In this document: positions 7,277 to 44,880 of the stretch, piece by piece
How the letters are laid out: each line of letters begins with the position of its first letter
Position numbering within the stretch: position 1 is the stretch's first letter
Source: Lineus longissimus
Taxonomy: Eukaryota; Nemertea; Pilidiophora; Heteronemertea; Lineidae
Reading direction: 5' to 3'
Assembly (NCBI RefSeq): GCF_910592395.1
Contig: NC_088319.1
Location: 5,332,001-5,396,000, forward strand
DNA length: 64,000 nt
Made by a program: the position numbers and the translations under genes
The notes under the pieces: generated by a model
What the model saw: the letters and a program-made list of their open reading frames with translations, nothing else
Told to the model about the DNA's origin: nothing
Databases searched by the model: none

Positions 7277-7279
7277 TTA

Positions 7280-7500: not shown

Positions 7501-7533
7501 TGCCACATTTCAATTTGCGCGGTTGGAAGAAAC

Positions 7534-9065: not shown

Positions 9066-9240
9066 CTGTGGTACCAACAAGCTTGGCCAGATCATCTTTG
9101 GCTGCAGACCTTTTAATTCTGTCTTTATATGATTCCTCCTTGGTATTATAAAGACAAGGGTGGCGTTCCAGATTCTCAACAAGGACATTTTCGGTTTCAA
9201 AAGTCCACTCATATGCATTTGACTTGTCACTTTTAGCCAT
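9066..9240 (-). pseudogene. MADF-domain exon of a Harbinger partner protein
   Basis: From ATG at 9240-9238 (MAKSDKSN) the frame gives EWTFETENVLVENLERHP, CLYNTKEESYKDR and LAKLVGTTG, the N-terminal two-thirds of a MADF (Myb/SANT-like) DNA-binding domain: the initial Trp, the hydrophobic/acidic helix and the PxLYNxxxxxYKDR signature. It ends at a good donor (CACAG/GTAAGT, intron starts at 9065). Harbinger elements commonly encode such a Myb/SANT/MADF partner that binds the ends and carries the transposase to the nucleus. No downstream exon was found below 9060, so this is a remnant. Confidence 0.75.
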
Positions 9241-9775
9241 TTTGGATATGGAGTAAAAATCACATGACTTTTTATCACAGTCTGATTGGCCACAAAGTTG
9301 AAATGTAATCGACACTTGTAGAAACTTGATGAAACCAGTCCAGAATTTACGAGCATGTTCGTAAATTGTTTCATGTTATACAATACATATTATACAATAG
9401 CATCAAATTTTTCAAACAATATTTAATAGTTTAACCATATCGCTCACTTGTATTGTACACACTGCACATCAGATTGTAAGTCATATAACCAGATACTTAT
9501 CAAGGTGCACCAGTCGAGCATTCTCCAAAAAGTTTCTTTTTTCAAATAGCTTGCTACCAACCATCAGCACAATTAGTATAAATGACCCCTCAGGACTAAA
9601 AAGCTCTGTACACACTGACAACATTTTGGGAAACATGTTGGCCAACATGTTGTCCAGGTGCGATGTTATCGAAAATTTGGCCCTGTATACACATGACAAC
9701 ATTCGACAACATGTTGGGCAACTTGTTGTCGAATGTTTCCGAGAAATGAGGATTTTGGAGGGAAATTCCTAAACA

Positions 9776-12453
9776 ATGGAAGATTCTAAGAGAAGAAGAT
9801 GTATTGTCGGTGGCTCTGCCAAAATTTTACGTATCCTGGTTGAAAGACTGCAAAGAAGACGTAAAGATGAGAAAAGAGTGTGGACAAGACCATGGATTTA
9901 TGAGACACCAGCATGGGGCCTACCACTGTCTCCTGAAAGAATTAAGATTGGTGGACAAGCCCTCGTACAAGAATTTCCTTAGGATGGATGAACCAGCATT
10001 TGAGGAGCTCCTACACAAAGTTGGGCCTCTCATAACTAAGCAAGACACCCATCTAAGGGACTCCATTCCGGCTGCCGAAAGGCTGGCCTTAACGCTACGG
10101 TTCCTTGCATCAGGTGAGTGATTAAAAACTTGGAAGAATAAACTATTTCCGAAGTTCAGAAATTATCTTATGTTCCACTGTCCATTGTTATAAAATTGCA
10201 CTATTTTTGAGCTTACTCTTGTAACCAATCTGCATTCTCCCAAAATGAAAAGTGAAGGGACATAAAAATTATCTTTTCAGGTGATTCATTCACAAGTCTC
10301 CAGTATTTGTACTGGATACCGAAGTCAACTATATCAGCAATTGTTCCAGAGGTTTGCGAGGCGATATTTCAAGTACTTGTGGATGAGTACCTTAAGGTAA
10401 ATTCCCTGATCAAATTATGATTGATACACGGTTTCCATACAGGTCATTCTGAGGAAATCTCATCACTGTCGGAGGGGAGTGCAGTAAGCATCCCTGATTT
10501 CCTAAAGATGATTTTATGAGTGACGCAGTGGGACTACAAATAAAGTAAATGATAAGTTACCCAAATGCATCCTGAGGAAATCAGGTGTTCTTCTTACAAT
10601 CCTATTCCCACACCTCTTGGGCTAATGAATGCTTAGTACATGTATTTCCTCAGGATGCCCAATGAAGAAAACAAATAGCATGGATATACAAACTAAGGTT
10701 TATTTTTCCTAAAAAATACAAAGTATCACACCCCTTGGTGTTTCTGCTGCTATAAAATATTATATGTCAACCTAACACTGACCATGTTTGGCATTCTACG
10801 TTTGTAATCGAGATTAACACTTTTTAGATTTCTTAAAACTGAGAATTGGACCAAAACTTATATAAGGGTACATGTGTACAACAACATTCAACTCAATAGG
10901 TCGAACGGATGGCGGCAACGACGGACGCCTCGCCAAAGCAAAAGCTCACCTCTCTGAGATTTACAGCGACATATAGGTCATTTGTGAGTCAGATAACGAG
11001 GGTGATGGAGAGGCAGAAAAAGGAGAAGGAGACGGAGAGGGGAATTGGCCTCCTTGAAAAGGAGAGGGAGTACGAAACATCTCCGTCCTCCTGCCAGGTG
11101 GCTCAAATGGTCTTATTGATGGGACACTTTGAGCCATGCTTCTAGCAGGAGGATGTGAGAGCAGCATTTGCGGCCTTTGCATGGGCATGGTACACTCAAA
11201 AATTACTGTTTGAATTTTGTGTTTCACAAATTTTTTCAATCTTGCATCAGAAATGGTTTTTAATTCTGAAGATACATATTGTCCAAAGATGTCATCGGCA
11301 CATTGTGTCTTTTCCACCTGGATCTCAGGTATGGTAGCTCTTTCTACAGCCTTCGTGGCTCTGTGAAGGAGGTTATTTTCACTTTCTTCTAGTCGTCGCT
11401 TCTTACTCATTCTTTTCTCTTTCACAGGTTTCTTTGTGGAACGTCGAATTTCTGGCAGCTCTTCATCATCATCTTCATCATTCCCCTCTACAGATCCATC
11501 AGCAAGATCGTCCACTACCTCAGCTTCCTCTGCCTCATAAGCCTAAAATAAAAAAAACTTTTCTATATATCATTTCAGGTACCTCAATCAGCAGAAGAAT
11601 GGGAAGAGAAAGCAAATGAGTTCGCGACACGATGGCAGTTCTTCAATTGCATTGGCGCCATTGATGGGAAGCATATTGTAATACAGGCCCCAGCCAACAG
11701 TGGGTCGTATTACTTTAATTATAAAGGGACATTTAGCATTGTACTCCTAGCCCTGGTTGATGCTGATTACAAGTTCACATATGTAGATGTTGGACAAAAT
11801 GGTCGAGCTTCAGATGGGGGGGGGGGGGGGTGTACAAGACCTCAACGCTTGCAAAAGCCTTAGAAACGGGAGAACTTAACATAACATCGAAGTGCCAACT
11901 TCCTGGAACAGACAAGCTGGTGCCATATGTGTTTGTAGGAGACGATGCCTTCCCTTTGAATAATGGTATGATGAAGCCATACAAGAAATGCCCTCTAACG
12001 AAGCAGCAGAGGATTTTTAACTATCGACTCAGCAGGGCCAGACGCATTTCTGAGAATGCTTTTGGCATACTGGCCAATCGTTTCCGAGTTTTCATGAAAC
12101 CGATAGCACTTGAGGCAAAAAAAGTGGAGAGCGTGGTCTTGGCATGTGTCACGCTTCACAATTTTCATCAAGCGAAACCGAGTTGTCGCCGTTTGTACAC
12201 CCCAAGAGGAAGCTTTGATCATGAAGACACTAATGCCGGAGTTTTCACTGACGGTAGCTGGAGGCCAGAACCACTGGCACTTGGAGCTGTCGCAAATGAA
12301 CCAGAACCAAAAGGACTAACTGATATTACAGGCGGCATGCGGGGGAGGCAGTTAGACATAGGAAAAAGAATCAGAGATGTCTTGTGTGACCACTTCAATT
12401 CGGAAGCTGGTGCAGTCCTTTGGCAGGACAAAATGCTGGAAACTGGAGTTTAA
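9776..12453 (+). pseudogene. Harbinger transposase of element C, three exons
   Basis: Exon 1 9776-10113 (donor CAG/GTGAGTG), exon 2 10281-10396, exon 3 11579-12453, all GT-AG and in phase. Domains: N-terminal helical region (NFLRMDEPAFEELL, PAAERLALTLRFLASG), HTH-like exon 2 (ISAIVPEVCEAIF), then the DDE nuclease: CIGAIDGKH (first Asp), GQNGRASDGG (second Asp) and RRISENAFGIL (Glu). The product would cut and rejoin element DNA. Lesions: the ATG at 9776 is out of frame with the rest, implying a frameshift near 9800, and a run of 15 G at 11816-11830, where the family has a short Gly-Gly stretch, puts the two sides in different frames. The G run could also be an assembly or polymerase-slippage error, which would leave the gene almost intact. 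Confidence 0.88.
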
Positions 12454-13102
12454 TGGAAATAGGCTAACCTGTGACTGACTTGTCAGATTCGACCTTGTTA
12501 CTGATCGCTTTCCAGCAATTTCCTCTAAAAAATACATTTGGTCATAGTGCACCCAGTTGACTTTGGTTACCTCGTCAGTGTCGGCTCCACTGCTCATTGA
12601 TGCCATTTTCTTATTTTTTTCTCGGTTGTGCTGGGCCTGAAGTGATTTCATCTTTTTGTTTACTTCATCAACTGAAATGGAAAAACAAAGTTATTGTTCT
12701 TGTTATGTATAGCCCTTTAATATAAAAAAAATACAACAACAAAACGTTAGCCTATATAGTCTGCATTATTCTTGATTATGTTTTTACACTGTGCTGTACT
12801 ACATGCAGTCAGAGTTGGAGTTTACAATGTAGAAAAAAAATATGACTACCATCAAAAAAAGTGAAAGACCAAAAATGTAGTACCACTCCCAGTTTTCTCC
12901 ACAAGCATGACATGGCTTTTGTTAGGTTGACCCACCCTACATTTCTGTACCTTGTCATTTTACCAGCCTACTTTGGAAGTAGCAACCCTATTAACCTATA
13001 ATATTGTCGAAAAAATAATTGAAACCACTGCACTGGCACTGGGCTGGGATGGTCTTTATCTGTTTTTGCTACCATACATGTAGCCATAATTCTATAGTAT
13101 AA

Positions 13103-15809: not shown

Positions 15810-17143
15810 ATGTTGCGAGGTGCAGAAGTAGAATTATTTGAGGAGGATTTACGTCCTTTTCCAAATTACAAAGAACGGTACAATCCGTTCGAAACAGCCA
15901 GTGACGCAGAATTCTTTGCCTGTCACCGATTTACAAAAGCGGTCTTTCGCGATTTGCTCGATATATTGGAACCAGGAATTAACCGGGCCACAAGAAGGTA
16001 GGAGTACTAATGGCAGCCTACTTGTAAGCGTGAAATACACGTGGTTTTGACTTGCCATTGGCCATTGTCTGGTTTGTGCCGATGATGTGCTGCATGATCG
16101 AGACGGTATTCATCATAATGATAAATTTCAAGGTACTTGTAGTCATATTTAAAGGCCTACGCTAGCCCTCCTCTCTCTAGGCCTATATCCATAGCAACGG
16201 CATACTATGTCCAAATTGCACAGAGCTTGAAGCCGATTAAAACAATTCGTTTTGGATTTGTCGTTTCAGGTCGCATGCTTTGGAACCCATTGTCCTGCTT
16301 TGCGTTGGTATAAGATACCTCGCTCAAGGTGGTTTCCTACCCATGATAGGGGACGTGTATGGTATTTCCCCAGGGCAGCAAGTAACTGCATACACTCCGT
16401 CACGCAAGCCATTTGTGACAGAATGGATAGGTTCATCACCTGGCCCGACATGGAGGAAGTGAACAGGGTGAAACTCGACTTTTACAACGCCAACCATCAT
16501 CGATTCCCTTGCATTACGGGACTGATTGACGGCACGCAAGTAGAGGTCAACACTCCACATCGACCCTACAATGAGGCTGCATACGTCAACAGAAAGGGAT
16601 ACCACGCGATCAATGCTCAGGTTGTATGCGATAGGAAGATGAAGATCTTCAACTTGGATGCACGTTGGCCGGGCACCACCCACGACTCCTTCATGCTCCG
16701 AAACTCCCACGTATGGGACAGATTTGAGGAAGGCCGTATGGAAAACAGCTGGCTTCTGGGGGATGCTGGTTATCCCCTTCGGAAGTGGCTTCTTAATCCA
16801 TTCAACAATCCTAACAACGAGGCCCAGGAGAGGTACAATAGGGCCCATAAACATCTCCGATCCGAGGTAGAACGCTGCATTGGAGTGATGAAGATGAGAT
16901 GGAGGTGCCTTACCAAGCCAATAATGTTTGCACCAAACAAGGCTTCTAGGATTATAGCTGCATGTGGTGCCCTGCACAATTTTCGCAATCGCTCATAGAG
17001 TCCGACTAGACGAAGAATACGCTAAAGGGATGTTCGATAACCAGCCCAATATTCAGGCGGAGAATGACATTTGGGAGCAGAATGTGGCTGGGGTCAGAGC
17101 AAGAGAGGAGCTTGTACAGAGGGTTTTCACTAGGAATGCCTAG
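15810..17143 (+). pseudogene. HARBI1-like transposase of Harbinger A
   Basis: Exon 1 15810-15997 (MLRGAEVELFEEDL ... GINRATRR, donor AG/GTAGG) and exon 2 16270-17143. Exon 2 begins HALEPIVLLCVGIRYLAQG, the HTH region (FLPMIGDVYGIS ... NCIHSVTQAICD), then the DDE nuclease: LIDGTQVEV (Asp), GTTHDSFMLRN (Asp), LLGDAGYPL, SEVERCIGVMK (Glu) and the ALHNF motif. Two frameshifts are visible: near 16370-16380 (one G short after GISP) and near 16980, after ALHNF, beyond which the correct frame continues LDEEYAKGMFDN to a stop at 17141-17143. Otherwise full length for the family, so recently inactivated. Confidence 0.9.
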
Positions 17144-18844: not shown

Positions 18845-19410
18845 CTAGTTCCACATATGTCCCATGTATGGCTTTCCACGAGGGGTAGGGTAAAGACCCC
18901 TGACCAGGGTAAGAACACAGTCAGGAATGACCTCCCTGTCACCTCTTTGCCTTGAAATCCAAACAGCATGGTCTTGATTCCTTTCTTGCAACATCCTATG
19001 TTTTTTCTGAATGTATCTGTAATCATTCCATGCATCACGATCCTTCATCAATTTCCAATATCTTTTGTACAAGTCCTTCCTAATTGTATTGTTTCCTTTC
19101 CTGGGAGGCTGTCCTGCCCCCAGCCACCCTGACCTCTTGGTTGCAACACATGGTTGGCAATAACATAAATTACATTCCTCTCTCTGTGGATCACGAGGCA
19201 CACGAATCTGCTGCCTTTCTTCTACAACAGGCACAGCTGGAACTGGGTTAATAGACAGGTTCTGCTATCCCGTTCCAAGATCGGCACCGGGATAGCCTAT
19301 CCCGGAGCCGGAGCTGGAGCCGGTACCGTGCTTTTCAGGTTCTGCTACGGCGGCGCCGCTGCGCGATTTAGAATTCGACCGACAGATGTCAGCCTTGTTT
19401 CAAAGTTAAA

Positions 19411-20496
19411 ATGGCGGCAGATTTGAGTTTGATTGAGTTGGCAGCTCTTGCAGATGACGACGATTTGATGCTGTACGCATTGGATGAAAATGATGATACT
19501 GGACGAGAATCAACTTTTGATCCTCGTTGGGAACGATTTGATATCAACAACTACAATGATGAGCAGTGCAAAGCCAAATTCAGGTTCTCTAAAGGGGAAA
19601 TTGGTCAACTCCTTGATTCACTTGCAATTCCACGTGTCTACAAATGTCCTCATGGCTGTATTGTAAGCGGGCATGATGGTTTATGCATGCTTTTGCGGCG
19701 ACTTGTCTACCCAAACAGACTTGTTGATCTGGAGAAGGAATTCGGAAGACCTAAAAGTGTTCTTTCGGAAATAATTACTACTGTTCATGAGGACATCTAT
19801 TCACGATTCCACACCAAGTTTTCGCAACTGGAACAGTCATGGATGGGACAAACTCCAAGAGACAAGCTCCAAGAATTTGCAAATGCAGTGCATGAGAAGG
19901 GTGCACCCCTTACAAACTGTTGGGGGTTCATAGATGGAACGCCCAGGCAAATCTGTAGACCAAAATACAATCAGAAAGTCTGTTTCAGTGGCCATAAGAG
20001 ATATCATTGTATACAATTTCAATCAGTAGTGGCCCCAAATGGGTTGATCGTAAACCTCTTCGGCCCAGTAGAGGGGAGGCGGCACGATTCGGCTATGCTC
20101 AGGATGAGCAATCTGGTTCGGATACTCGAAATATTGGACTACCGCATGAACGACGAGGACAGAACACCAATATGCTTGTATGGGGATCCTGCGTACCCCT
20201 TGAGAGACATTTTGGTTGGACCATTCAAGGGAGCTGTACTGACAGACGAGCAGAAGGAATTCAATAAAAGGATGAGTTCGGTGAGACAAAGCGTTGAATG
20301 GCAGTTCGGCGAGATAGTTGGTATATTTGCCTTCCTCGACTACGAGAAAAACCTGAAACTTTATCTTCAACCTGTCGGAAAACTGTACGTGGTGGGGGCA
20401 TTGCTGACCAACTGCCATACCTGCATTAAAGGGTCGCAAACTGGAATATACTTTGGTGTTGAAGCCCCTACATTAGAGGATTACTTGGCCATTTGA
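19411..20496 (+). CDS. Intact Harbinger transposase of element B (361 aa, single exon)
   Basis: ATG at 19411 (AAA ATG G context) opens a 361-codon frame. Residues 1-50 are acidic; 51-150 form the helical/HTH region (FRFSKGEIGQLLDSL, LLRRLVYPNRLVDLEKEFG, SVLSEIITTVHEDI). The DDE_Tnp_4-type nuclease carries D175 (CWGFIDGTPRQI), D226 (GRRHDSAML), the GDPAYPL motif at 258 and E296 (SVEWQFGEI). All three catalytic positions are present and there is no internal stop, so cut-and-paste activity is plausible. Length is normal for HARBI1-like transposases. It is transcribed toward the 3' end of its partner gene. The internal stop-free state contrasts with elements A, C and the 7534 remnant. Confidence 0.93.
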   Translation: MAADLSLIELAALADDDDLMLYALDENDDTGRESTFDPRWERFDINNYNDEQCKAKFRFSKGEIGQLLDSLAIPRVYKCPHGCIVSGHDGLCMLLRRLVYPNRLVDLEKEFGRPKSVLSEIITTVHEDIYSRFHTKFSQLEQSWMGQTPRDKLQEFANAVHEKGAPLTNCWGFIDGTPRQICRPKYNQKVCFSGHKRYHCIQFQSVVAPNGLIVNLFGPVEGRRHDSAMLRMSNLVRILEILDYRMNDEDRTPICLYGDPAYPLRDILVGPFKGAVLTDEQKEFNKRMSSVRQSVEWQFGEIVGIFAFLDYEKNLKLYLQPVGKLYVVGALLTNCHTCIKGSQTGIYFGVEAPTLEDYLAI

Positions 20497-22117: not shown

Positions 22118-24198
22118 GATGATATCCTGGTATAATACACCAGATGAAAACTCCTGAAAAAAGTGAATTTTATGAAACAACATTCAAGAAAGTAAATACT
22201 CTGCACATATTTTGCATGCCGATTTGTATAGGCCCTATCCTCATCAATCCAGGCCCCCTTTAACAACAGACCATCAATAGAGAGACTGCAGACCCTTCAT
22301 GGCCCTAGTCTAGTGCCTAGCCCAACCCATCACTTGCTACAACTGACATGACGTAACAATTGTCCAAGGTACAAGCAAGCTTGGGGTCTAAAACTCGGCG
22401 AGAAGTGAAATAGGGATACCACGAAATTAGGTACCATGTACTTATATATTGCACGTAGCATAGCACTTGACTGAATCATGATATGGTCATGCCTGGATGA
22501 TGATGGAGTCAGTGCAAAGCGGGACTTCTGATTTTGGCCTGATTATTTGAAATATCATGGGGAAAATGCCTAAACTCCTGATTCCTCAGTGTCATCACAT
22601 GTTTATCTGACTACGGAACACTTCAAATCCGGTGTTATAACTCTTGAAATGCAGAAATCGATGAAAAGCCTGCACCGTTTGACACTTACGAGATACAGAC
22701 TATTTATCTCGGAACACGGGACCTGCTTAGCTTCATAATATGCACGAAATGATGACGTCACGGCATTTTCTGATGACACGGTCCTCCGTTATCCCGGAGC
22801 CGATCTCGGAAACGGGATAGCAGAACCTGTCTAATGTTAACCCCTCCACCCTCTACAGTGTCTACTGGTAATGCTACATTGTCATCAATAATTCCAACAG
22901 GTTCAGCAGCAACCACTCTATCAACTGTGTCTGCTTCAACTGAGTCTGAATCACACTGTATTCCAATATCATGATGCATAACATCAAGTTCTTCAATATC
23001 CAAATTATTAAAATGAATTATTCCCAATATCAACTCTTTTTGTTCAGCTGTAACCAGCAGTTGCAATATCTCCTTCCTTTCCATGATGATAAAACTTGGT
23101 CTAACACAGCCCAAATAAAACTAAGAAATTCACCTCATGAACCAGGTCTTACCAACATGAGGGGTGATAGGTTGGTCTGTCATCTATGAAGAAACCTGGC
23201 CATAGAAACTGTCCATCCAAAGCTCCCACCATATACCCCTGTAGCCACACAGTTTTTTCTTTTTTATATCCCTGCCAATTGTCCTCCTTGGTTTTCTGGA
23301 GTCCTTCACTAATACTGTCGAAGTTACTTCCCTATCCTGCTGTTCATTCCAATCTAAAACAGCCAAGTTACTACGGATAACATATGCTGATTTCTCAAAA
23401 ACTATCGTTTTGTCATGAAACTGTAATATCGCATTATTGAATGATTCAACAAAATGTGTGTCCTTGCAACAAATGTACAACTCCGGTTTCTTGTATACAG
23501 CCATACCATGAAGGAACTTTCTCAAGGCCTCCACTGCTTTTGGGTTGACAATCGGTTCCTTGCTAGGTTCATAGTCAGGATCAGACCTGCAAGGGAACTC
23601 AAGATGACAGTGACTGTGATCGCCTTGATAGTGTGGAATGATACTGTCAATTCCTTCCTTGATCTTTTCAGGATCACCATTGCATCTTTTGATGTGGTAA
23701 TACACATGGGTCTTTACTGAACCTGCTTTTTCCGCCAAGTCTCTAAACCAGGTTTTCCCTTCTAAGTACTTGTACCCCGATGTCAGCTTTTTCAATCCAG
23801 CAGCTATGTTTTTAGTCATGTGCCATGTATCCAGAGAATTCATTGTTGGAGCATGTTGATCCCTGACAAATTTGGTGATCTGAGGGTTCGAGTCATGGGC
23901 GTGCACCCTCACTGGAAAATCCTGTTCATCTAAATATGTATATATTTTCTTAGTTCCTATGAGTTCATGTCTCCCTGGAGCTGGATCATCATATTTGGAC
24001 ATGACCTCATGGGCAAGTACCTTGTGAGTTTTATCCCCCAAACACAAAACATCAGTAAATCTGGAATTCTTGTGCCAGCAGTGTCTTGCATCTGTCGCAA
24101 TGTCTACGCCATCAAGTCCACTTGTTTCGACAGAGGCGGCAATTTCATTCAACAAAGCATAACCCTCCGATTCCTTTGTGGTGGCGTCAGTCACAGTT

Positions 24199-25299
24199 TT
24201 TAGCTCACCTCTTAGCAGAGGTGAGCTTATCCCATACCGTGGCGTCCGTCGTCGTCGTCGTCGTCCGTCGTCCGTTAGCATGGCACGTTTCGTAACTGTT
24301 AGAGCTATTGAGTTGAAACTTGGTACACATGTACCCTTATGTAATGACACCTTGGAGACCAAGTTTCGGTCCGATTCGTTTCATGGTTTGGCCACCAGGG
24401 GGCCAAACGTTAAAAGTGAAAATATGCAATATCTCCCTTAATAGTAGTCGGGAAATTTTGAAAAAAATATGGTAGGTACTTCTAGCAAAGGTGCATCATA
24501 TATCCTCCAGGTTTTTGATTTGACCTCCTTTTCAAGGTCACAGAGGTCAAATGGTGTAAATTGGCCGTTAGGATGTAACGATGGCACGTTTCTAAACTGC
24601 AATGACTATTGATACCAAATTTGGTACACATTTACCCCTTAGTCAGGTGATCCCAGGGACCGAAGTTTGGTCCAATATGATTCACCACTTGACCACCAGG
24701 GGGCAAAATCCAAAAACCTTAAAAATCTGATTATTCCTTAACTTCTTGCCCGATTGCCACCAATTTGATATCATGGGTACATCTAACCACCATACAGTAT
24801 ATGTCACACAGGTTTTTAATTTGACCTTCTTGTCAAGGTCACAGAGGTCAAATGGCATAAATTCGCTGTCAGGCCGTAACTATGGCACGTTTCTTAACTG
24901 CAATGACTATTGATCACAAATTAAGTACACATGTACCCCTTGGTCAGGTGATCTCAGGTACCGAAGTTTGGTGCGATCTGATTTGCCGTTTGGCCTCCAG
25001 GGAGGGGGCCAAATCCTAAATTCTTCAAAATGCCATTATTCCTAGTAATGACTTGCCCGATTGGCACCAATTTTATATCATAGGTACATCTAATTCTAAC
25101 AACCTTTCAATGTGTCACCCGGGTCTTCTTTGATTTGACCTACTCTTCAAGGTCACAGAGGTGGAATGTACTGTAAATTGGCCATTTTGGGGAAATTGTA
25201 ATTGCTTGGACCTACATCAAACCTAACACTACATGACACAATACCATGCTCTTTATCCATCTTTCCTCCACATAAGGTGAGCACAATGGCCCTGGCCAT
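24199..25299. repeat. Hairpin-ended repeat, family 1, copy 1 (full length, about 1.1 kb)
   Basis: Starts TTTAGCTCACCTCTTAGCAG, in which AGCTCACCTC and GAGGTGAGCT form a hairpin, followed by a CGTCGT-rich stretch. It ends GAGGTGAGCACAATGGCCCTGGCCAT, where AATGGCC/GGCCATT forms a terminal hairpin. The inner part has about 230-bp internal periodicity (TCAAGGTCACAGAGGTCAAA recurs at about 24535, 24835 and 25150). No coding capacity. It interrupts the transposase gene between LAETYMK and TVTDATTK. The ORF that seems to run from the gene into this repeat (start at 24362) is a chimera. Confidence 0.9.
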
Positions 25300-29810: not shown

Positions 29811-31083
29811 CTGAAACAAAACAACAATCTTTATATAATGATTATCTTAGTGTTACCTAGATATTCAAGGTCTTCTGCTGGTATGGGTCAGGTACCAAGG
29901 TTTGCCTGATCATCAAGGGTTGTTCCATTGTCATGTTATTATAGACAAGTTTTGAAAGTCGAAGACAAAGTGTAATCCACTAATTGTGCTTTAATTGAAC
30001 AGCATGTTCAGGGTATAGGCCTAGGCCTTGGCTTACGGTATAGACTGGGATAGAACCAGTCTACCTATTGTAATCATAAATAACGTGGTGGTGGTCACAT
30101 GCCCCCAATGACCTTCTAGGGTAAAAAATATCATTGACTCGATACATGTACATTGCAAAATGTACAGGAAAACCTTGTAACAACAAAAACATGAAAACTT
30201 GCCAATAAAAGGGGATGTTCGGCTAAGGGACCTGATTACCAAAATTTGTTTAGGGTATTTATAGTAGGAATTAAAAGATGAAATTTGCATGGATGGTACA
30301 AAAGACCGAACTCTAGATGATGAAAAAAGAAAATCTCGGCATATCTGTAATTAAGGATGGAAAACAATGAGGTTTCTAAAAAGTGGCAAAAAAGGTAGAA
30401 AACAGTAAGAAATTAAAAATATTAATATGAATATCTTTAGAATTCATTATAATCTGTACCCTGACAAAAAATTATTTTGATCCGAGATTGCCTTCATGCA
30501 GAAAATCGAGAAAAATCAAGAAAAAACGTCATATTGCTGGGTGTGTGTATTGCATGGAATAGCCATATTGAACTTAACTAACAATAGAAAACCACAACAC
30601 CGTGAGGCATTATTTGCCAGACATGAATCTATTTCAATAAGCTTTATAAATGCTGTAATTGAGTAGTTCAATTGTTAAGTGACTGTCAACTTTACCAACT
30701 GGAAGAAGTTAACCCATTCTGTCCCAGCAAGATAATAATATTAGACATTTGTTAAAATCATTTGATTTTTACGATCTACATGTAATTTGTAATTGAAGTA
30801 CAGAGAAATTCCTTAATAAATGGTGATATTTTGATCCTGCTCCCAATCTTTATCTTCTTTGTAATGAAATAACATACTATAATATAACATGTTAATCTCA
30901 CCTTTCTTTGCCCCAACAATGAATAATTGGGCATTTTAAACCCATTCTAACCATGAGTATGTTTTTATGTTAAAAGAATGCCTTTTTTTGTCCCATATAC
31001 AAGGGGTCATAAATATGATGGCCTTGGCCGCTGTGGAAATATTTCTTAAAGCTTATAAAGAAGTTGAAATCGTATTTAACCCT

Positions 31084-31231
31084 GTGACCGCCATACACGA
31101 TATACTATTTTCCTTTAAAATATTTCCTATGATTTTCCATGAGAATCGGTTGGATGTAAAATATATATCAATATTTTTTTAGGAAATATTTTGAACAATC
31201 AAGTAATGTATCGTGTATGGTGGGGTCATAA
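31084..31231. repeat. Short inverted-repeat element, about 150 bp
   Basis: GACCGCCATACACGATAT at the left and its reverse (ATCGTGTATGGTGGGGTC) at the right bracket an AT-rich centre. MITE-like; superfamily unknown. Confidence 0.55.
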
Positions 31232-31669
31232 TTTTTTTTAGTATTGTTAACCCTTTACAAACCAGATACCGGGTACCTATAAAGCATTGTAGTCGATGAT
31301 CGCCGGCCCGAAAGGTCAATTTGACATAAAAATGTAGCCCCAGCTTAAACGGTCAAATTAATTATTTCGCATAGCATTTTTTGAACGAAATGAATAGGAC
31401 AGAACCTATTTGTGGAGTTTTTTTTCCTTTACGATAAAAATTGAACAATGTTTCCTGACAGACACGTTGCCAGTTTTTCCTATCCAATTCCTATACGATG
31501 AAAATGTACCGTGTGTGGCAGGCATTAGGCATGATTTTTTAGGTAGAAGACTGTGTTTAAGGATGAGGTCTGTCCTCAACTGTTCTAAGACCTAACAGAA
31601 TAAATGATGTTTCCGGTTACCCGACCCCCCCTCCAAAAAGAAGTAAACGACCCAGGTTGAGGCAGACAT

Positions 31670-32320
31670 TTGATATATCCCAACTAGTTGTTGTCAAGGT
31701 AACAGAGTATTATCCATTTGAAAATCCCAAAGGTTGTTGTCAAGGTACATAGGATTATCCATTCCATATTCCAACTAGTTGTTGTCAAAGTAACAGAGGA
31801 TTATCCATTTGATATTTTAACTAGTTGTTGTCAAGGACACAGAGCATTATCCATTTGATATATCCCAACTAGGTGCGTTGTCAAGGTAACAGAGCATTAT
31901 ACATTCCGTATTCTAACTATTTGTTGGGAAGGTAACAGAGGATTATCCATTCGATATTCCAACTAGTTGTTTTCAAGGCAACAGAGCATTATCCATTTGA
32001 TATTCCAACTAGTCATTGTCAAGGTAACAGTGCATTATCCATTCCATATTCAAACTAGTTGTTGTCCAGGCAACAGAGCATTATCCATTTGATATTTCAA
32101 CTAGTTGTTGTCAAGCTAAAAGAGGATTATCCATTCAATATTCCAACTGGTTGTTGTCAAGGTAACAGAGGATTATCCATTCTATATTCCAACTAGCTGT
32201 TGTCAAGGTAACAGAGGATTATCCATTCAATATTCCAACTAGTCGTTGTAAAGGTAACAGAGCATTATCCATTTGATATTCCAACTAGTTGTTGGGAGGG
32301 TAACACATATTATCTAGTAG
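31670..32320. repeat. Minisatellite, about 46-bp unit, about 14 copies
   Basis: Diverged head-to-tail units of the form CCAACTAGTTGTTGTCAAGG followed by TAACAGAG(C/G)ATTATCCATT and a GATATT variant. It lies between the left TIR and the transposase stop codon. A second, looser repeat of about 120 bp (TCGTCAACTGGTTGATACC, CCATTTCACGAC) follows at 32440-32790. Confidence 0.88.
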
Positions 32321-32929
32321 CATGTTCTAACTGTGTTGGCAACACAACACAGCTGTTTCTATCCTTAGCCAAGTCACTTCACCTCGTCATCTGCTCCCCC
32401 ATTTGATAAGCTCAATGACCAAGTGAACAATATTAGTACTGTCCTTCAAATGTCTCTCTTCAACTCTTTCTCTTCTCGGGTAATCTCGTCAACTGGATGA
32501 TACCAGCAATTGCCATTTCACGACAAACTCTTTCCCGCTGGCCGCTCGATGACTCAAGTGAACAATACATATTACGATTGTCCTTCAACTCTTTTTCTTC
32601 TCCGGTAATCTCGTCAACTTGTTGATACCAGCAATCGCCATTTCACGACTAACTCGTTCATGACACAGGTGAACAATACATATTACGATTGTCCTTCAAC
32701 TCTTTCCCTTCTCGGGTAATCTCGTCAACTGGTTGATACCGGCGTTTGCCATTTCATGACATCCATGCTTTAACTGTTTCTCTTCACGGGGAAGTCACTT
32801 CATCTCTGAGCATTTACGTATTTACAAAATGTTAGCCTATTGTCCTGAGACCAGAGTTGTTCTAGGCTAAATTGTTTGAAACATTTCAAAGTATGTACAA
32901 ATTTAAGCTTGGTTCTAATGCTGCCTATT
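32321..32929. other. 3' region of the DDE-USP gene, repeat-rich
   Basis: Contains the second tandem array (32440-32790, about 120-bp units) and no ORF. Probably 3' UTR or subterminal element sequence. Confidence 0.45.
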
Positions 32930-35900
32930 CTAGCGAAAGAATATCGCATTTATTGTAAGTAGATTGCCCTGGGTCTCCCAGGGTGAAACTTTAACTGGCC
33001 GCTGGCTATCATCTAGCTTCCACCAATCCTGTCTCGTGTCTTTTAGGAAACATAACCAGTGACCGATGTCACAGGACTTTCCTGAATGGCATAGCACTGC
33101 CATTGCTGTTTGGTTAGTGAAAACTTCTGAAGTTGGAGCAGAGATACTAGTAGTACACTTTGTGTTGGATAACAGATCGAGGCGTCTGTTTAGTTCTATA
33201 ATTGACACCTGTCCTTGCCTGCATACTTGTAATCCGATGCCACTTTGAGCGCATAATCTATTTCTAACTGGTGTCTCACATATCAGTGGAACTGGTGCTG
33301 CCTCTTCAAAATAATGTTCATACATATGTTGCAGCGAAGCACGATTTCCTTGTGGAACATTAAGTCGGATGCTGAAATTATCTGCACCGACCATTTTCTG
33401 TGACACATGCCCGGAAGGACACACCAGTTCTGCAGGCCAAGAGGTGAGGAAACCCTCGTTTATGTGCAGTTTCTGCAGAAGTTCCATTAGAAATTCTCCG
33501 GCGTCATTATACAGTGGGATTCTGAATCCTGCTCCTTGCATTGTTGCATTGACTGCACGGATTAGAGGAATGAGCGAGAACTCCTCACCCCCAATTCTCT
33601 GGCAGGTGTTCATAAAAATATTATCAAGTGCACTTGTTCCTCGAATGTTGTCATGTAAGCCCACATGCTTTAAACATTGACTAACAGCAATGCTGTAGCA
33701 TATGTTACCGTCATTTGTTAGGCCAAGAAATCCAGAAGTAGATGCAGCTGAGGAAGTACCAGGTGACACTGTTGGTATCCTGGTTGTGATTGGTGGTGAT
33801 TGGGTCTGTGCACTGCAAGATCGACTGGCTGAGGAAGTACCAGGTGACACTGTTGGTATCCTGGTTGTGATTGGTGGTGATTGGGTCTGTGCACTGCAAG
33901 ATCGACTGTCTGCTACTGAAGTGCTCGCCCCAAGTTGCACTGTGGACTGATGTTGACTATTTGCAGAATTTACGCTCACTTGTCTACAAATCTGTGGCCC
34001 AGCATAACTTGGCTGTAGTGAGAGAGGCAACTTCGGATCACTCATGTGACATAGTCTGATCACTGGCCTGTGTGGTAGATTTCCACATATTATGATCAGT
34101 AAGGCTAGTACATGGGCGTCAGATACAAGGATGCGTGATCCTAGATCGCTTCCAGCTGCCGAGCTGCAATTCCAGCCCACAAGTTTCATTAGAGGTCCTG
34201 TGAAACCCAGGTAATTGTTTGGAACATCAGCGAAGACCAACAGTGGGCGTTTGAGATTTGTAGTGTTACGGTTTGATCGATTTGCTGATGGCATCTTTGC
34301 TGTAATGATTTTAATTCCACCAGAGACTGGCCATTGGAAATAGCGCTGTTCATCCCATCCCTGGGGTTCATTTGCCAGTGTTCTGTAGTAAACAACAGTT
34401 GTAGAAGGAGGCTCGCGCATTGCATCCCAGAGGTCACTGATGTCTTCAAAACTGTCAAGAATCGGAGGGATGTCTAGCTCCAGCTGCCGCAGGTGTGTGA
34501 TATAGGACAGAGCTCTTTTGAACAGGAATGGACCCAATGGCAATTCATAAAAGCTATCCCGTTCCTGCGCATCGACTGTGGGGAGATTCAGCTGATTTCT
34601 GAGAGTCCCAGTTCCACTCATTGTTATCGTACTCCAGCCGCTGGAAGCAGCATTTGACCTCGGAATGTCAGTGATATTTACTGGCCACTGAATGTCAAGA
34701 TCGTGCAAGAAACTTGTTTGATTCAGCCGAAGTTTCACCAATTGCGCTAGTCGTATCTGTTCCTGGTTGCTGACGAATTTCAAGCTGAATTTCCTATGGA
34801 ATTGGTTGTACACGTTCACACTGGCTAGCCATATTAAAGACAAGCGAGGGCTGTTCGCATAAGCCAAGGGAATGTGATACTTCTGGCAAAATGATTCTCC
34901 AAGGGGTAGCAGAAACTGATATGGCACTGTGGCAAAGATCTTCTCCTGCCTCATGGCCCCATGAAATTGCTCAACACCTGCACGCAGCTTTCCAACAATG
35001 GCTCGACTATTCTTTGTCAGAATGGGATCCCCAGGACAGTCCACGAATTGAATGTTATTATTTCGTACTTGCAGGATTTGTTCATCTCCATCACTGGGCC
35101 ATATTACAAAGCATCCATTTGTCTTACACCACTCTTGGAAGTTCTGAATGTTGTTCAGGTTGACATTATGAGGAACGAAGATGTACCCTTTATCTACAGC
35201 AAGGACAACAAAGTAACGATCTGTGCCTTTCAAGAGGGACGTCATCCCATGATCCCCTGTATTCTGGTGTGACTCACGGGCAATTTCGAGGCCTGCCAAT
35301 TGGCTGTCACCACATCTTGGAGTTGCTGCTGCAGCTATTGGCGTTGTCAACAAAACATGCCCTGTTGTGCTGACTAATGAGGTAAATGTGACACAATGAC
35401 CACCCTTCTTTGGGTAATAAGAAGCTTTCTGATTATCGTAATCCATGGAATTTGGCACCCGCACCTTCTTGGAATCAAGGGAAATTCCTACTGGGCTACG
35501 GTGTCGTCCTGTTGGGTCATCCATATACGATAGCAACTCCCTGTGGTATGGCGACTCTGCTTGTTGAACACTTTGAAAAAACTTATGTTTTTCGGTTGTT
35601 GTGGTTGATGGAGACCAGAAGAGATTTGGTATATGACTATTTTGGAAAAGATGATAGGTCAATTGTGACCAGAAGATGTCGTGCGCAGTTGATGCAGCGA
35701 CTTGGAAGGTGGCCGAAATGTCAATGAAGTCAACGTTTGACCTCATTCTATACCTATACAGCAACACACGTGCAGAAATATCTAATCCCGAGTCTCTGTG
35801 AACGGTATCTCTCTGTAGCCATACAAGATTCCAGAAATCTCTGACCCTTAGTCCTGAACAGTTCTGAAGTTGGCCTTCCTGCAACATCCATGGATGACGG

Positions 35901-36214
35901 AAACAGTTTTTACTTTCCCGTCTTTCTTTTGGCCACTGATGCCTCTCATACACTTCATCATAATGACTATCAGTTTGTTTATATGTATATCCACTCTGTC
36001 CATTTTGTCCTGCACTGCTCTGAACATTCGATTCAGAACACCCCTGAATATCATCTTCTTCATCTGAAAAATCCAGATAACCGTATTCCTCATCGCTTGA
36101 GTCTCCATGTGAACTTGTACTATCCTCAGCTGAAATATCCTGGCTATGCTGTGATGCTCCAAGATGTCCGGGTTGTGAGTGTGGCTGTATCTTGTTTAAA
36201 ATAGAAAGAAGCAT
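32930..36214 (-). CDS. DDE transposase fused to a ubiquitin-specific protease (1094 aa)
   Basis: One uninterrupted frame. Residues 1-100: Ser/Asp/Glu-rich. 120-190: helical/HTH region (LDISARVLLYRYRMRS, FIDISATFQVAASTAHDIF). 240-420: DDE_Tnp_4-like core with D247 (GISLDSKKVRV), D303 (CGDSQLAGLEI), D341 (VLAVDKGYIF) and E415 (LRAGVEQFHGAM). 740-825: Ser/Thr/Pro linker with a perfect 27-residue tandem duplication. 828-1094: USP-type deubiquitinase with Cys box GLTNDGNICYS (C839), a CPSGH zinc-ribbon hint at 932, and His box CDIGHWLCFL (H1052) with WWKLDDS (D1068/1069). All catalytic positions of both enzymes appear present. Role: transposition, with removal of ubiquitin from itself or a host factor as inference. 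ATG at 36214 is the ORF start, but an upstream exon may join near 36193. Ordinary transposases of this fold are 350-450 aa. Confidence 0.8.
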   Translation of the reverse strand: MLLSILNKIQPHSQPGHLGASQHSQDISAEDSTSSHGDSSDEEYGYLDFSDEEDDIQGCSESNVQSSAGQNGQSGYTYKQTDSHYDEVYERHQWPKERRESKNCFRHPWMLQEGQLQNCSGLRVRDFWNLVWLQRDTVHRDSGLDISARVLLYRYRMRSNVDFIDISATFQVAASTAHDIFWSQLTYHLFQNSHIPNLFWSPSTTTTEKHKFFQSVQQAESPYHRELLSYMDDPTGRHRSPVGISLDSKKVRVPNSMDYDNQKASYYPKKGGHCVTFTSLVSTTGHVLLTTPIAAAATPRCGDSQLAGLEIARESHQNTGDHGMTSLLKGTDRYFVVLAVDKGYIFVPHNVNLNNIQNFQEWCKTNGCFVIWPSDGDEQILQVRNNNIQFVDCPGDPILTKNSRAIVGKLRAGVEQFHGAMRQEKIFATVPYQFLLPLGESFCQKYHIPLAYANSPRLSLIWLASVNVYNQFHRKFSLKFVSNQEQIRLAQLVKLRLNQTSFLHDLDIQWPVNITDIPRSNAASSGWSTITMSGTGTLRNQLNLPTVDAQERDSFYELPLGPFLFKRALSYITHLRQLELDIPPILDSFEDISDLWDAMREPPSTTVVYYRTLANEPQGWDEQRYFQWPVSGGIKIITAKMPSANRSNRNTTNLKRPLLVFADVPNNYLGFTGPLMKLVGWNCSSAAGSDLGSRILVSDAHVLALLIIICGNLPHRPVIRLCHMSDPKLPLSLQPSYAGPQICRQVSVNSANSQHQSTVQLGASTSVADSRSCSAQTQSPPITTRIPTVSPGTSSASRSCSAQTQSPPITTRIPTVSPGTSSAASTSGFLGLTNDGNICYSIAVSQCLKHVGLHDNIRGTSALDNIFMNTCQRIGGEEFSLIPLIRAVNATMQGAGFRIPLYNDAGEFLMELLQKLHINEGFLTSWPAELVCPSGHVSQKMVGADNFSIRLNVPQGNRASLQHMYEHYFEEAAPVPLICETPVRNRLCAQSGIGLQVCRQGQVSIIELNRRLDLLSNTKCTTSISAPTSEVFTNQTAMAVLCHSGKSCDIGHWLCFLKDTRQDWWKLDDSQRPVKVSPWETQGNLLTINAIFFR
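33747..33908 (-). repeat. 81-bp coding tandem duplication in the DDE-USP linker
   Basis: Two copies of 81 bp (33747-33827, 33828-33908) differ little or not at all and add 27 residues (SRSCSAQTQSPP ... VSPGTSSA) without shifting the frame. It lies between the transposase and protease domains, where length change should be tolerated. Confidence 0.9.
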
Positions 36215-36494
36215 ACTACAGGGTGGGTAAATAAAAGGTTAATACATCCAGGATAATTATTTTTGGCTAAATAATTGTATAATGAGTTATTGTCTTCAAA
36301 CAATATCAGTTCGGCAAAAGTGAATATTCAACAGCGCTGTCAAATATGACAACCCTTGGTCTCATAGTAATGGAAATGCTATAGACAGGGTTGTCATATT
36401 CAACAACTCTAGGGGTAAATATTTCCAATCATTATTGGGGGGACGTGTGAAGGATTAGTGATTTCTCTTTCTGTTCATGGTAGACAGTGCTGAA

Positions 36495-36652
36495 TTTACT
36501 AAAAATCTGCCCTGGGACATTTGCTCTTTCCCTTGCATTCCCGCCAAAATCAGATGTTTACCCTCCTTCAATACAAGAAATTGGCCAAGAAATCGACCTT
36601 ATTTCCAAACGCAGTGAAAGGTTCAAATGTCACAGGGCAGATTTTTAGTAAA
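36495..36652. repeat. Small inverted-repeat element upstream of the DDE-USP ORF
   Basis: TTTACTAAAAATCTGCCCTG at the left is matched by its reverse complement at the right over about 28 bp. A shorter perfect hairpin (ATATGACAACCCT, arms at 36344-36356 and 36387-36399) lies beside it. Both are in the presumed intron or 5' region of the gene. Confidence 0.65.
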
Positions 36653-37028
36653 AATGGCCAATTAACGCTATTTGACCTCTGTGACCTTGTAAAGTAGGTC
36701 AAATGAAATAGAAATGGTATTTCTCATTCAAATTGCAAATCACTTCGTCTATATCCAAAAGCCAAAAGTACATTTTTCACAAAGCGCCACCTATCCGGCT
36801 GAGCATGTCAAAAATGACTGAAACCGCCAAAAGGCACAATGCAACATCATCCCAGGTGGTGAGAACCATGATGACGCGAACCTGGTCCTATAGGCTATGG
36901 GTTTAAGTATCTACCCAGTAAACATCACACAATGTCGGAGTGAAGACTAGGATGAGTATTTGTAATAGATCATGCAGTAAAACTGCTGTGGCAAAGTAAC
37001 CTAGTTTTCGCAAAACCTGCATACTCAC

Positions 37029-37511
37029 CGAGCTTTGCACAATTGTTACCATATTTCCACTAATACTAGACGAATATTGACATCCTCCTGGTGGTAGAGT
37101 CCATGGCGGACATATAGTATAATCAGTATTAGAGGAAATGTCATGAATTTTCAGGTATGCATTATAAGTTATGGTGCCATTGTTTTTGAGAATTGTGTGC
37201 AACTCCTGATGGGGATTGATAGCTGCTAGCTCCTTTAGCTTCAGATAAGCTGTTGCATTTATTCTGCCGGGTATAAACACAAATGGCCACACTCCTGGTA
37301 CGGCAAGTTTGCCGGCCTGACAAATAATAAGTCGCTCACAAATTGAATTGGCTCCCAAAGCATCCTTAACACTATTTACGTTGCTTGGTCTTTCAAGAGT
37401 TTGAAAGGTAGCTGCATCCACTGCACTCACTCTAAATGGACACGAATGTGTCAACAAATGACTCCATCGGGTGAATACATGGGTACAGTGTTCACATTGG
37501 TTTTCAGGCAT
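37029..37511 (-). CDS. C2H2-like zinc-finger exon of the DDE-USP element
   Basis: From ATG at 37511-37509 the frame starts MPENQCEHCTHVFTRWSHLL with C-x2-C followed by H-x3-H (LTHSC), a zinc-finger-like motif, then about 130 residues (SICERLIICQAGKLAVPG, YLKLKELAAINPHQ) of unknown fold, ending at a strong donor (AGCTCG/GTGAGT at 37028). A phase-0 acceptor (AAACAAG/ATACAG, about 36193) would join it to IQPHSQPGHLG of the large ORF, giving one protein with an N-terminal DNA-binding finger. Alternatively it is a separate small protein of the element. The ORF may extend upstream to 37589. Confidence 0.55.
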
Positions 37512-38306
37512 CTTTGAAGAACAACTGTGCACTACTGAAATACACAGGTAAAATTCCCCAACACTATTACAAGGACTATTACATAACAAGAAATGAACCC
37601 ACTGCCTAAAAACGGCATTTAGTCATGGACAGCCAATGTCATTAGAGTGGAAAACAACTATAGAAATTGCTTATGAACCATGACCAACACAAAAGGGGTG
37701 GGTGGGGGGAGGTATTGTGATGACATCATGATCAAGTTGAGGGATTTATATAATTTGGTTTTGCCACTGGGCATCATGTTCAGAGTATGGCTTGATGATG
37801 TAATTACTTTGATCTTGTCACACACATAAAAATCACATTGTAGATGGCCTATTCTATACTCAATAATAAGACAATACCACTAAAAAAGCAAGAACACCAA
37901 CATAAAAAAGAACCAAATATTGAGTACTGATAACTGATGTACATTTTGACATGTTTAAAAAAAACACAAGTTAATAATATAAGTACCAATTGCCTGCACA
38001 TAAAGTCGATATGAATGGGAAACACCCTTGCCAATCCAATTCTTGCACAAACGCTATATGCATGTAGTTTTTCTTCGCTGAACATACAGTATATACTCAA
38101 ATTGGGGTGAATAAATTCTGACCAGCGCTGGAGACACACATGAGCAAAAAGGGTTAACCGCCTGGTCATCAAGAGGTTATGGAATGCATGCATACAGAGC
38201 CAAATCAATCTTCAACCAAACTAGTCAATTAATGAAACAGACACAGGGCCACAGGACTGTGTTATCAAAGTTATTACTGGTTCATTTATTCTTTTGTGCT
38301 GGTCAT
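37512..38306. other. 5' region of the DDE-USP element, no gene
   Basis: Between the zinc-finger exon and the right TIR. No coding signal; a promoter would be expected here but no specific element is recognisable. Confidence 0.4.
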
Positions 38307-38739
38307 TTTAAATGGCTATTCCATGCAATACACACACCCAGCAATATGACGTTTTTTCTTGATTTTTCTTGATTTTCTGCATGAAGGCAATCTCGGATCA
38401 AAATAATTTTTTGTCAGGGTACAGATTATAATGAATTCTAAAGATATTCATATTAATATTTTTAATTTCTTACTGTTTTCTACCTTTTTTGCCACTTTTT
38501 AGAAACCTCATTGTTTTCCATCCTTAATTACAGATATGCCGAGATTTTCTTTTTTCATCATCTAGAGTTCGGTCTTTTGTACCATCCATGCAAATTTCAT
38601 CTTTTAATTCCTACTATAAATACCCTAAAAAAATTTTGGTAATCAGGTCCCTTAGCCGAACATCCCCTTTCCACAAAACAACTCTTAATTGATTCTCATG
38701 GACTTTAACAATGTCAAGTTATTGGATCGTTATCGGGCA

Positions 38740-43255: not shown

Positions 43256-44880
43256 TTACTGATTGTAGACTCTTTTGGTGTGGAAGAGCTCAAAACACGT
43301 GGTCGGACACAGAGGCACACCACACTTATGACACCAAAACAATGTATCTTTTCTCTTCCTATCTGTTTTTGGAGTGTTTGTCATCTTTCTCTCATAAGCA
43401 GCCTTATCACTGCACACTTTACAAGCCCTTTGGGGCTTGTTCTTTTTTTCTGTTGGAGGTAGATAGGATGGGAAGTGGCGTGCGGTCAAGCGGTTCGCTG
43501 GGTCCGGCTCATCATCAGAACCCTCAGAATCGACATCAGCCTCATGCATATTACTGGCAAGATCAATAATGAAGTCCTTCAGACACATGGATTTGACATT
43601 TCTGGCTTTGAGTTCCTTCTGGTATACCTTGTGAGCATTGACTACTGTCAAGTAAAATAGATGGAAGAATAGTTTCTTCCACCACTTCATCGTCTTGTGT
43701 TCGAAGGCGTAGTAGAACATCATCTGATCAATTTTGTCAACTCCAGCCATATGATCATTGTAGTCCTGAACAACTACTGGTTTATCCTTGTCCTTTCTGC
43801 CCCCTCTAGCCCTGACTCTGACATTCATCATAGCAGAAGCATGCTGATTGGACAGCATCAAAACATCTTTTCTATCCTTCCACTTCAGTGCCAATAGTTT
43901 CCCTCGGCGGTAAGCTTTCACTTCACCCTTCTGTTTCAGTTTTGGTTTTATCTCAATAGGTAGTCCTTTCCTATTATTATTGCAAGTACCAGTGACTGAT
44001 GTTCCTCTAGCAGTGAGTTCATCATATAGCTTTGGTGATGAATAATACCTGTCCATGTATAACTTGCGACCAATGTCGAGAGAGCGATTCATGATACGCA
44101 TGACTGTGTGAAATGTTTTGTCCTGGGTCACATCATTCTCAGACCCTGTAAATATTTCGAACTCAAAGCAGTAACCAGAGCTTGCCTCACACAATTCATA
44201 GAGTTTGATACCCCATTTGTGGGGTTTGTCCTTATTGTAGACATGAAATTTGACTCTTCCTTTGAAGGCACATGTACCTTCATCAAAACTGATGTGTTGC
44301 TCCGGATATACAGCACGTCGAAACTTTTCCTTCAACAGGTCAACCATGAAGCATACTTTGTACAGGGGGTCATGCCCATCCTCACCACGGGGGATATAGT
44401 TAGTGTTGTCCATCAAGTGAAGCATTGAAAGAATTCCCATGAACCGATCTCGTCCCATCAGTTTACGAGCAAATGTTGACTTCAAGACACTACCCCCGGA
44501 CCAATAATCTCGCAGTGCTGGTTTCTGGACCATCCCCATGTGTAAAATAATTGCAAAGAATCTCTTTAGTTCATCTAATGTAACAGTCTTCCAAGAGTTC
44601 ACCACTCCAGTTGGAGAATGCACCCCAGGCCCACGTTTCCTGCTCCGGGCATAAAGGTTGGTTTGTTCTTTGAGCTGAACCCAAAATGCATGCGGCAAAA
44701 TTTGTCTAGGACATCCCGCGCAGACACATCATCATCAAAGTCAAGCCTGACCTTAGGATCTGGTCCAGTAAAATCAGGAATGTCTGGTAACTCTCCTGGG
44801 TCACCACCCCAAGCTCCAGCAGGGCTAGGTTGCCTACGCCTTCGACTAGGAATACGCAGTAGAGCACAATGTCATGAAAA
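43256..44880 (-). pseudogene. piggyBac transposase (PGBD4-like)
   Basis: The main frame 44698-43256 (480 codons) has the dimerisation region (ELKRFFAIILHMGMV, FMGILSMLHLMDN), the catalytic aspartates in HISFDEGTCAFKGR, KLYMDRYYSSPKLYDEL and NDHMAGVDKIDQMM, and the C-terminal Cys-rich zinc module (CKVCSDKAAYE ... FWCHKCGVPLC). The usual N-terminus (GDPGELPDIPDFTGPDPK) is readable upstream at 44880-44705 but in another frame, so a single-base deletion at about 44698 separates it; the frame opens there on TTG, not ATG. The nuclease core is otherwise complete. piggyBac transposases cut at TTAA and excise precisely. Confidence 0.92.

Follow-up and report, generated by a model that had tools for sequence, protein, structure and literature searches.

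A Spy-like transposon of Lineus longissimus encoding a transposase fused to a putative ubiquitin-specific protease

Introduction

Spy transposons insert within AAATTT without forming a target-site duplication (TSD). In the available portions of their descriptions, the terminal inverted repeats (TIRs) vary greatly in length (5-691 bp), the elements measure 1,165-5,910 bp, and the transposases, of about 700 aa, are encoded by one ORF, or by one or two according to the discussion (PMC4482050, PMC11304231). Spy transposases are also reported, in the accessible part of one source, to be functional in human cells (PMC11304231). Ubiquitin or SUMO proteases are borne by unrelated kinds of transposons: OTU and Ulp1 proteases occur in Ginger, Mutator and Helitron elements, and PMC2836005 mentions a Trichomonas protein (XP_001314237.1) combining transposase_11 with Peptidase C19 and, on the function of such proteases, contains proposals only, in its discussion. 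A literature search, partly swamped by reviews of deubiquitinases, retrieved no paper describing a ubiquitin-specific protease (USP) joined to a transposase of Spy or Harbinger type. An earlier note on the locus described here had found its transposase-USP fusion unfamiliar; the Trichomonas protein, of another transposase family, is a precedent for the combination as far as the partial source goes (PMC2836005).

Results

Coordinates are positions in the window, the whole 64,000-nt stretch of DNA analysed, and the genome searched was that of Lineus longissimus. The element and its target site are composed as follows.

30211..38667, gene on the minus strand: complete transposon with ends GGGG...CCCC, 8,457 bp
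30211..30566, plus strand: left TIR, from repeat comparison
38312..38667, minus strand: right TIR, from repeat comparison
30208..30210, unstranded: left target half, AAA, from family-1 flanks and empty sites
38668..38670, unstranded: right target half, TTT, from family-1 flanks and empty sites
31675..32760, unstranded: non-coding tandem arrays, a 46-bp unit then a 101-nt unit, downstream of the gene

The earlier note had delimited a transposon at 30211-38667, which are exactly the element ends once the flanking AAA and TTT are assigned to the target. Its inverted repeats of about 360 bp were likewise recovered, as 359 nt with 2 mismatches (30208-30566 and 38312-38670, AAA/TTT flanks counted in). 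Genome-wide, the terminal pattern gave 11 forward and 11 reverse matches, pairing into 11 elements (family 1), and the reversed-pattern control gave none. Family-1 elements are 6,983-12,863 bp long (n=11), the variation arising partly through the array region. A family-2 element measures 7,823 bp and has an inverted repeat of 21 nt with one mismatch. The element family is young and recently active.

The outer flanks of family 1 read AAA in 20 of 22 cases and TAA in the other two, while those of family 2 read AAA in 10/10 and TTT in 9/10. The GGG...CCC ends thus directly abut AAA and TTT, and a TSD is absent. Among the loci retrieved, paralogous empty sites were available for 4 of 21 copies, with a duplication in none of the four; one of them is a weak, gapped match that reads AAACTT. 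Side-by-side comparison of the flanks of 21 copies revealed no 3-bp duplication. Since neither flanks nor empty sites contain a TWA duplication, assignment to PIF/Harbinger was rejected, and the Harbinger/IS5-like placement proposed earlier gives way: ends of the form GGG...CCC set between AAA and TTT without a TSD are the hallmark of Spy elements (PHIS superfamily). TIR lengths in both families (359 nt including AAA, and 21 nt) fall within the Spy range. Pfam detected no Myb/SANT or YqaJ domain in the frames scanned. The coding features are listed below.

32930..36214, minus strand: single open frame encoding the transposase-USP fusion, 1,094 aa, from ORF translation
34055..35905, minus strand: transposase part, residues 104-720, with D247, D341 and E415 identical in 5 aligned sequences
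33728..34054, minus strand: variable linker, residues 721-829, holding an 81-bp in-frame tandem repeat
32933..33727, minus strand: USP domain, residues 830-1094, with N834, C839, H1052 and D1068
36903..37589, minus strand: frame of 228 codons upstream of the fusion gene, bearing a weakly scoring C2H2-like motif (zf-C2H2, E 0.019, under the cut-off)

A Spy-sized transposase part of about 700 aa is followed by the USP, and the main frame exceeds the length of published Spy transposases because the USP is appended. It is highly probable, in our judgement, that the locus is a Spy-like element with an added USP, the likeness to Spy being to its published description. The 1,094-codon frame reported earlier is intact, with all the residues named in it in place (D247, D303, D341, E415, N834, C839, H1052, D1068 and D1069). 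The linker repeat, at 33747-33908, varies from 1 to 3 units among copies. The separate upstream frame, present in 10 of 11 family-1 copies, is possibly a 5' exon or an accessory frame, and the fusion gene is therefore perhaps not single-exon.

The transposase half matched HTH_Tnp_4 in 5/5 aligned sequences (best E 1.9e-4) and DDE_Tnp_4 in 4/5 (best E 1.2e-3), both weakly, and the bit scores displayed are under the curated cut-offs. The similarity behind the DDE_Tnp_4-like core claimed earlier is weak. In hhalign comparisons, the transposase aligned with a DDE_Tnp_4 frame of the window at 30.5% probability and with a DDE_Tnp_1_7 (piggyBac-type) frame at 0.2%. Pfam gave no match to rve, the Gypsy-type integrase core, at E up to 10, and a PDB profile search found no relative of the transposase, returning one unrelated row (E 0.91). 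Three DDE_Tnp_4 frames lie elsewhere in the window.

The protease half matched Pfam UCH above its cut-off (E 1.8e-7; 31.5 bits vs 23.9) and, with C839, H1052 and D1068 in place, the USP had been correctly located at the C-terminus. UCH was also found in all five families of the genome and in the database protein P0003. In a PDB profile search the best 60 of 72 matches were all USPs, including USP12/46, USP36 and USP7; the closest among the matches listed was USP36 (E 1.1e-8). Across the five genome families and P0003, the oxyanion Asn, the Cys, the His and the second Asp are identical, and the first Asp is Asp or Asn; we take the roles of these residues to be those in USP7 and USP2. The structure models were of low confidence (mean pLDDT 34 and 35, the latter for the USP). 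With the low-pLDDT USP model as query, each of the first 21 Foldseek rows was a USP or a SAGA deubiquitinase module, the best at E 0.0069 and none at 0.001 or better. The domain is probably an active protease. Searches with the element USP scarcely detected the non-element USPs of the genome.

By hand tally, both halves are present at 38 of the 41 loci with a transposase core, the other three being fragments or terminating before the protease, so copies do not consistently lack the protease. All 11 family-1 elements contain it. Eight loci had a transposase match and no USP match in the combined search, which left 40 of its 82 candidates unscored (42 scored). When the USP alone was searched for (51/51 scored), it was recovered at seven of the eight, and loss of the protease as a rule was rejected. 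The frame is open across both halves in 6/11 family-1 and 8/10 family-2 copies, one of the six full-frame family-1 copies having an altered VDKGY string. Two loci (L016 and L023) have altered strings at the USP catalytic boxes, and in two others (L025 and L028) the USP frame is no longer complete. The catalytic residues are retained in the five genome families and in P0003, with protease-half identities of 39-47% where compared. The same fusion is found on many contigs, and also in a database protein of another source; its genome-wide recurrence led to the rejection of a chance or assembly fusion. Among the candidates scored, which in one search formed a capped list of 7,991, the protein searches matched only members of this clan, P0003, P0004 and P0007 (a 212-aa fragment). 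Outside the clan, the USP search gave only two matches with E values of 0.15 and 1.5 besides a piece of 44 aa (E 1.3e-5). Pattern-matching stretches in viral contigs (31) and in a prokaryote genome collection (21) yielded no confirmation by tblastn.

The two halves diverge in parallel in 6/6 pairs compared, the USP half faster than the transposase half. Codon-position differences in the USP half are 0.69-0.70 at third vs 0.34-0.36 at second positions. With dS saturated in almost every comparison, no usable dN/dS ratio is available. Within families, full-frame copies differ in the USP half by 0 synonymous and 3 non-synonymous substitutions (family 1) and 0 and 2 (family 2), and in the transposase half by 1 and 4 in each family; these are mostly non-synonymous but too few to demonstrate constraint.

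Discussion

We propose that the transposase would bind its inverted repeats, excise the element and join it into an AAATTT target, while the C-terminal USP would strip ubiquitin in cis, first from the transposase itself and also from proteins touching the bound ends. The transposase might thereby evade the proteasome long enough to act. That the pairing is kept across several families suggests that ubiquitin removal helps these elements move, and we consider this whole explanation, a Spy-type element encoding a transposase-USP with cis-acting ubiquitin removal, likely. Its narrower part, that the USP acts chiefly on the transposase or transpososome and not on a distant host protein, is put forward tentatively.

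It is also possible, if somewhat doubtful, that the USP acts mainly on chromatin or repair proteins of the host, at the donor or the target site (e.g. ubiquitinated H2A/H2B, PCNA or FANCD2), and so opens silenced chromatin or directs repair. Its attachment to a DNA-binding enzyme and the matches to USP12/46, USP36 and USP7 are consistent with this, as are the repair roles proposed for OTU/Ulp1 in the accessible part of the Ginger paper (PMC2836005), although the likeness to those USPs is confined to the catalytic core. Cleavage of another modifier (SUMO, NEDD8 or Fubi) is improbable: one entry of the closest listed PDB match, USP36, is a complex with Fubi, and the Mutator Ulp1 proteases, in the same partial source, illustrate transposon use of modifier proteases (PMC2836005), but UCH scores above its cut-off and the Cys and His boxes are those of ubiquitin-type USPs.

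The altered or truncated USPs at four loci and the faster divergence of this half would suit a domain that is dead or was passively captured as a passenger; against this, the catalytic residues persist in five genome families and P0003 despite saturated synonymous divergence, and the protease half is found at 38/41 loci, which makes a passenger very improbable. Scarcely credible is a reading in which an ordinary PIF/Harbinger element lies beside a USP exon of the host, or in which the fusion is due to chance or mis-assembly. The HTH_Tnp_4/DDE_Tnp_4-type similarity and the three other DDE_Tnp_4 frames of the window fit such an element, but the 3-bp duplication is absent from all 21 compared copies, the fusion occurs on many contigs and in a protein of another source, and USP matches outside the clan amount to E 0.15, 1.5 and the 44-aa piece. 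This alternative is already refuted unless the assembly is wrong genome-wide.

Beyond the proposed cis-acting ubiquitin removal, the elements could, though this is unlikely, represent a Spy lineage that is old and distinct and whose transpososome includes the deubiquitinase as a working component. Excision would then be licensed, or insertion guided, by the local removal of ubiquitin; if true, transposition would be coupled to ubiquitin signalling in chromatin. Protease and transposase form one polypeptide, kept across families, in young elements with several full-frame copies. As Spy transposases are reported to work in human cells (PMC11304231), the role of the protease is testable with a single catalytic-site mutant.

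Compared with Spy as far as its partial descriptions go, the insertion within AAATTT, the lack of a TSD and the very variable TIR length are shared and the transposase part is of similar size (about 700 aa), whereas the present elements add a C-terminal USP (1,094 aa in total) and are longer (6,983-12,863 and 7,823 bp). PIF/Harbinger and ISL2EU (PHIS) have the broad DDE_Tnp_4/HTH_Tnp_4 transposase type that the present elements match weakly, but their TWA or AT duplication is absent here. Cellular USPs (USP36, USP14, USP12/46) share the Cys and His boxes, the oxyanion Asn and the UCH profile, whereas here a short core of about 265 aa is fused to a transposase. Ginger1, in the accessible text, also couples a transposase to a C-terminal cysteine protease of the ubiquitin/SUMO pathway, OTU or Ulp1 (PMC2836005), but its DDE domain is of the Gypsy-integrase type and its protease family is another. 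The Trichomonas protein XP_001314237.1, likened through its published mention in that partial source, likewise unites a transposase and a USP-class protease in a single protein, but with another transposase family and in a protist (PMC2836005).

Architecture of the element and its protein

The transposon at 30211-38667 of the window carries its gene on the minus strand and has the following features.

32930-36214, minus strand: transposase-USP frame, 1,094 codons, uninterrupted
Both ends of the element: terminal inverted repeats (TIRs), 359 nt, two mismatches
Residues 144-181: HTH_Tnp_4, Pfam, weak match
Residues 831-1071: UCH domain, Pfam, 31.5 bits (cut-off 23.9)

The catalytic residues that an earlier note had claimed for this frame, D247, D303/D341 and E415 in the transposase and C839, H1052 and D1068/D1069 in the ubiquitin-specific protease (USP), were all found in place. 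The transposase matched DDE_Tnp_4 weakly, with the DDE_Tnp_1_7 frame of the window used as a control. The linker between the two halves contains an exact, in-frame 81-bp tandem repeat (33747-33908), with one to three units among the genome copies.

The element also holds, upstream of the transposase frame, a 228-codon frame (36903-37589, minus strand) with a weak C2H2 motif, detected in 10 of the 11 copies of the same family (family 1). The N-terminus of P0004, a protein-database relative, is Cys/His-rich as well, so the 228-codon frame is possibly a spliced 5' exon. A 52-62-bp piece of the element at 36653-36708 also matches the window at 11 further positions, grouped near 24.5-25.2, 48.7-49.4, 54.1-54.8 and 63.6-64.0 kb, which suggests a piece of another repeat within the element.

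Ten other frames of the window were scanned. Three had no match, and seven were of transposon type (16231-16998, 19372-20496, 11767-12453, 43256-44728, 23184-24380, 59925-60545 and 275-1945), comprising three DDE_Tnp_4, one DDE_Tnp_1_7 (piggyBac-type), one Mutator-like, one THAP domain and one retroelement (RNase H/integrase).

The fusion across the genome

The transposase-USP fusion is the rule in this genome. We searched the 391-Mb assembly (30 contigs) with the transposase core, scoring 66 of 66 candidates; the 69 matches were grouped by hand into 41 loci, one of which (C12:7300599-7304454) may represent two elements, and a match at E 5.2 was left out as noise. A USP match adjoins the core on the same strand at 38 of these 41 hand-grouped loci, albeit partially at some (e.g. 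62 residues at C15:5019306). The protease half, which the earlier note had described as fused to the transposase, is thus not consistently absent from other copies. At C14:9115298 the match stops before the USP, and the other two loci lacking it, C4:15526 and C9:6922915, are fragments.

Querying with the USP half (51 of 51 candidates scored) also retrieved pieces with no listed transposase neighbour at C4:17228460, C7:14720569-14723396 and C20:9947461 (the last of 44 residues, E 1.3e-5); these are either remnants or a sign that the domain is used separately as well. Host USPs may account for the two remaining matches (E 0.15 and 1.5). The protein database yielded one full-length relative from another source, P0003 (48% identity, UCH present); P0004 has no USP part and stops at its residue 822, possibly through truncation.

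Recent transposition and target site

A 30-base pattern of the family-1 ends, allowing up to three mismatches, occurred 22 times in the whole genome (11 forward and 11 reverse), while the reversed-pattern control had zero occurrences. These ends pair into 11 elements of 6,983-12,863 bp, all with the USP half at 99-100% identity. The full stop-to-stop frame (1,102 codons) is open in five copies; a sixth, also open, has an extra 81-bp unit and an altered VDKGY string. Family 2 (L019-L028, ten copies; 7,823 bp in L019) has a 21-nt TIR with one mismatch, and its copies are 99.5-99.9% identical across aligned stretches. Its frame is built in the same way (1,095 codons stop-to-stop, 1,046 from the first ATG/GTG/TTG) and is open in eight of the ten.

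Of the 22 outer flanks of family 1, 20 read AAA and two TAA, and they are dissimilar further out; with AAA occurring at a frequency of 0.032 across the window, this is far from chance. Family-2 flanks are AAA in 10/10 and TTT in 9/10 copies. When the flanks of 21 copies were joined and compared with the retrieved loci and with the window itself, four of the copies proved to have a paralogous empty site.

Paralogous empty sites
L024, family 2: 117/120, AAATTT
L025, family 2: 198/202, AAATTT
L029/L030, family 1: 52/59, AAATTT
L047/L048, family 1: 118/173, many gaps, weakest of the four, AAACTT

Target duplication was seen in none of these four copies. The near-identical copies and clean AAA|TTT joints show that these elements have transposed recently.

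Conservation and possible role of the protease half

UCH was matched in all five families compared from this genome, across which Asn834, Cys839, His1052 and Asp1069 are invariant and position 1068 holds Asp or Asn, like the corresponding position of known USPs. P0003 agrees at the catalytic positions. Asn834 corresponds to the oxyanion Asn, with catalytic roles as in USP7 and USP2. A profile of four USP halves matched 72 PDB sequences (E up to 0.01), the best 60 of which are all USPs (top USP36, E 1.1e-8). AlphaFold models had a mean pLDDT of 34 for the whole protein and 35 for the USP half; with the latter, the first 21 Foldseek rows were USPs or SAGA deubiquitinase modules, with TM-scores near 0.2 and none at E < 0.001, a result no more than consistent with the USP assignment.

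Among four proteins, the transposase half is 49-56% identical versus 39-47% for the USP half, and the two diverge in parallel over the six pairs. In the USP half, differences are roughly twice as frequent at third as at second codon positions, a pattern compatible with purifying selection, although dS is saturated in nearly all comparisons.

From the conserved residues, we infer that the fusion protein acts as the element's transposase and that its USP is catalytically active. Such a protease would deubiquitinate the transposase and its complex in cis, the role that we tentatively favour at somewhat below an even chance. Its main rival, in which the substrates would be host chromatin or repair factors, we rate as only somewhat less likely.

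Comparison with known systems

Passages of PMC4482050 and PMC11304231 set Spy apart from other PHIS transposons by AAATTT insertion without a TSD. Spy elements are reported to encode a transposase some 700 aa long in a single open frame (the paper's discussion gives one or two), to have TIRs of 5-691 bp and to measure 1,165-5,910 bp. Our protein has about 720 aa ahead of its linker and is therefore, on the published description of Spy, most simply read as a Spy transposase with a USP joined on. A USP fused to a transposase with Spy-like insertion, in several families with open frames, was not found in the literature covered, mostly papers outside subscription. Passages of PMC2836005 report OTU and Ulp1 for Ginger1, Ulp1 for Mutator elements and OTU for Helitrons, and mention a Trichomonas protein combining transposase_11 with Peptidase C19; a ubiquitin protease within a transposon is therefore already known, with a USP-class example noted before.
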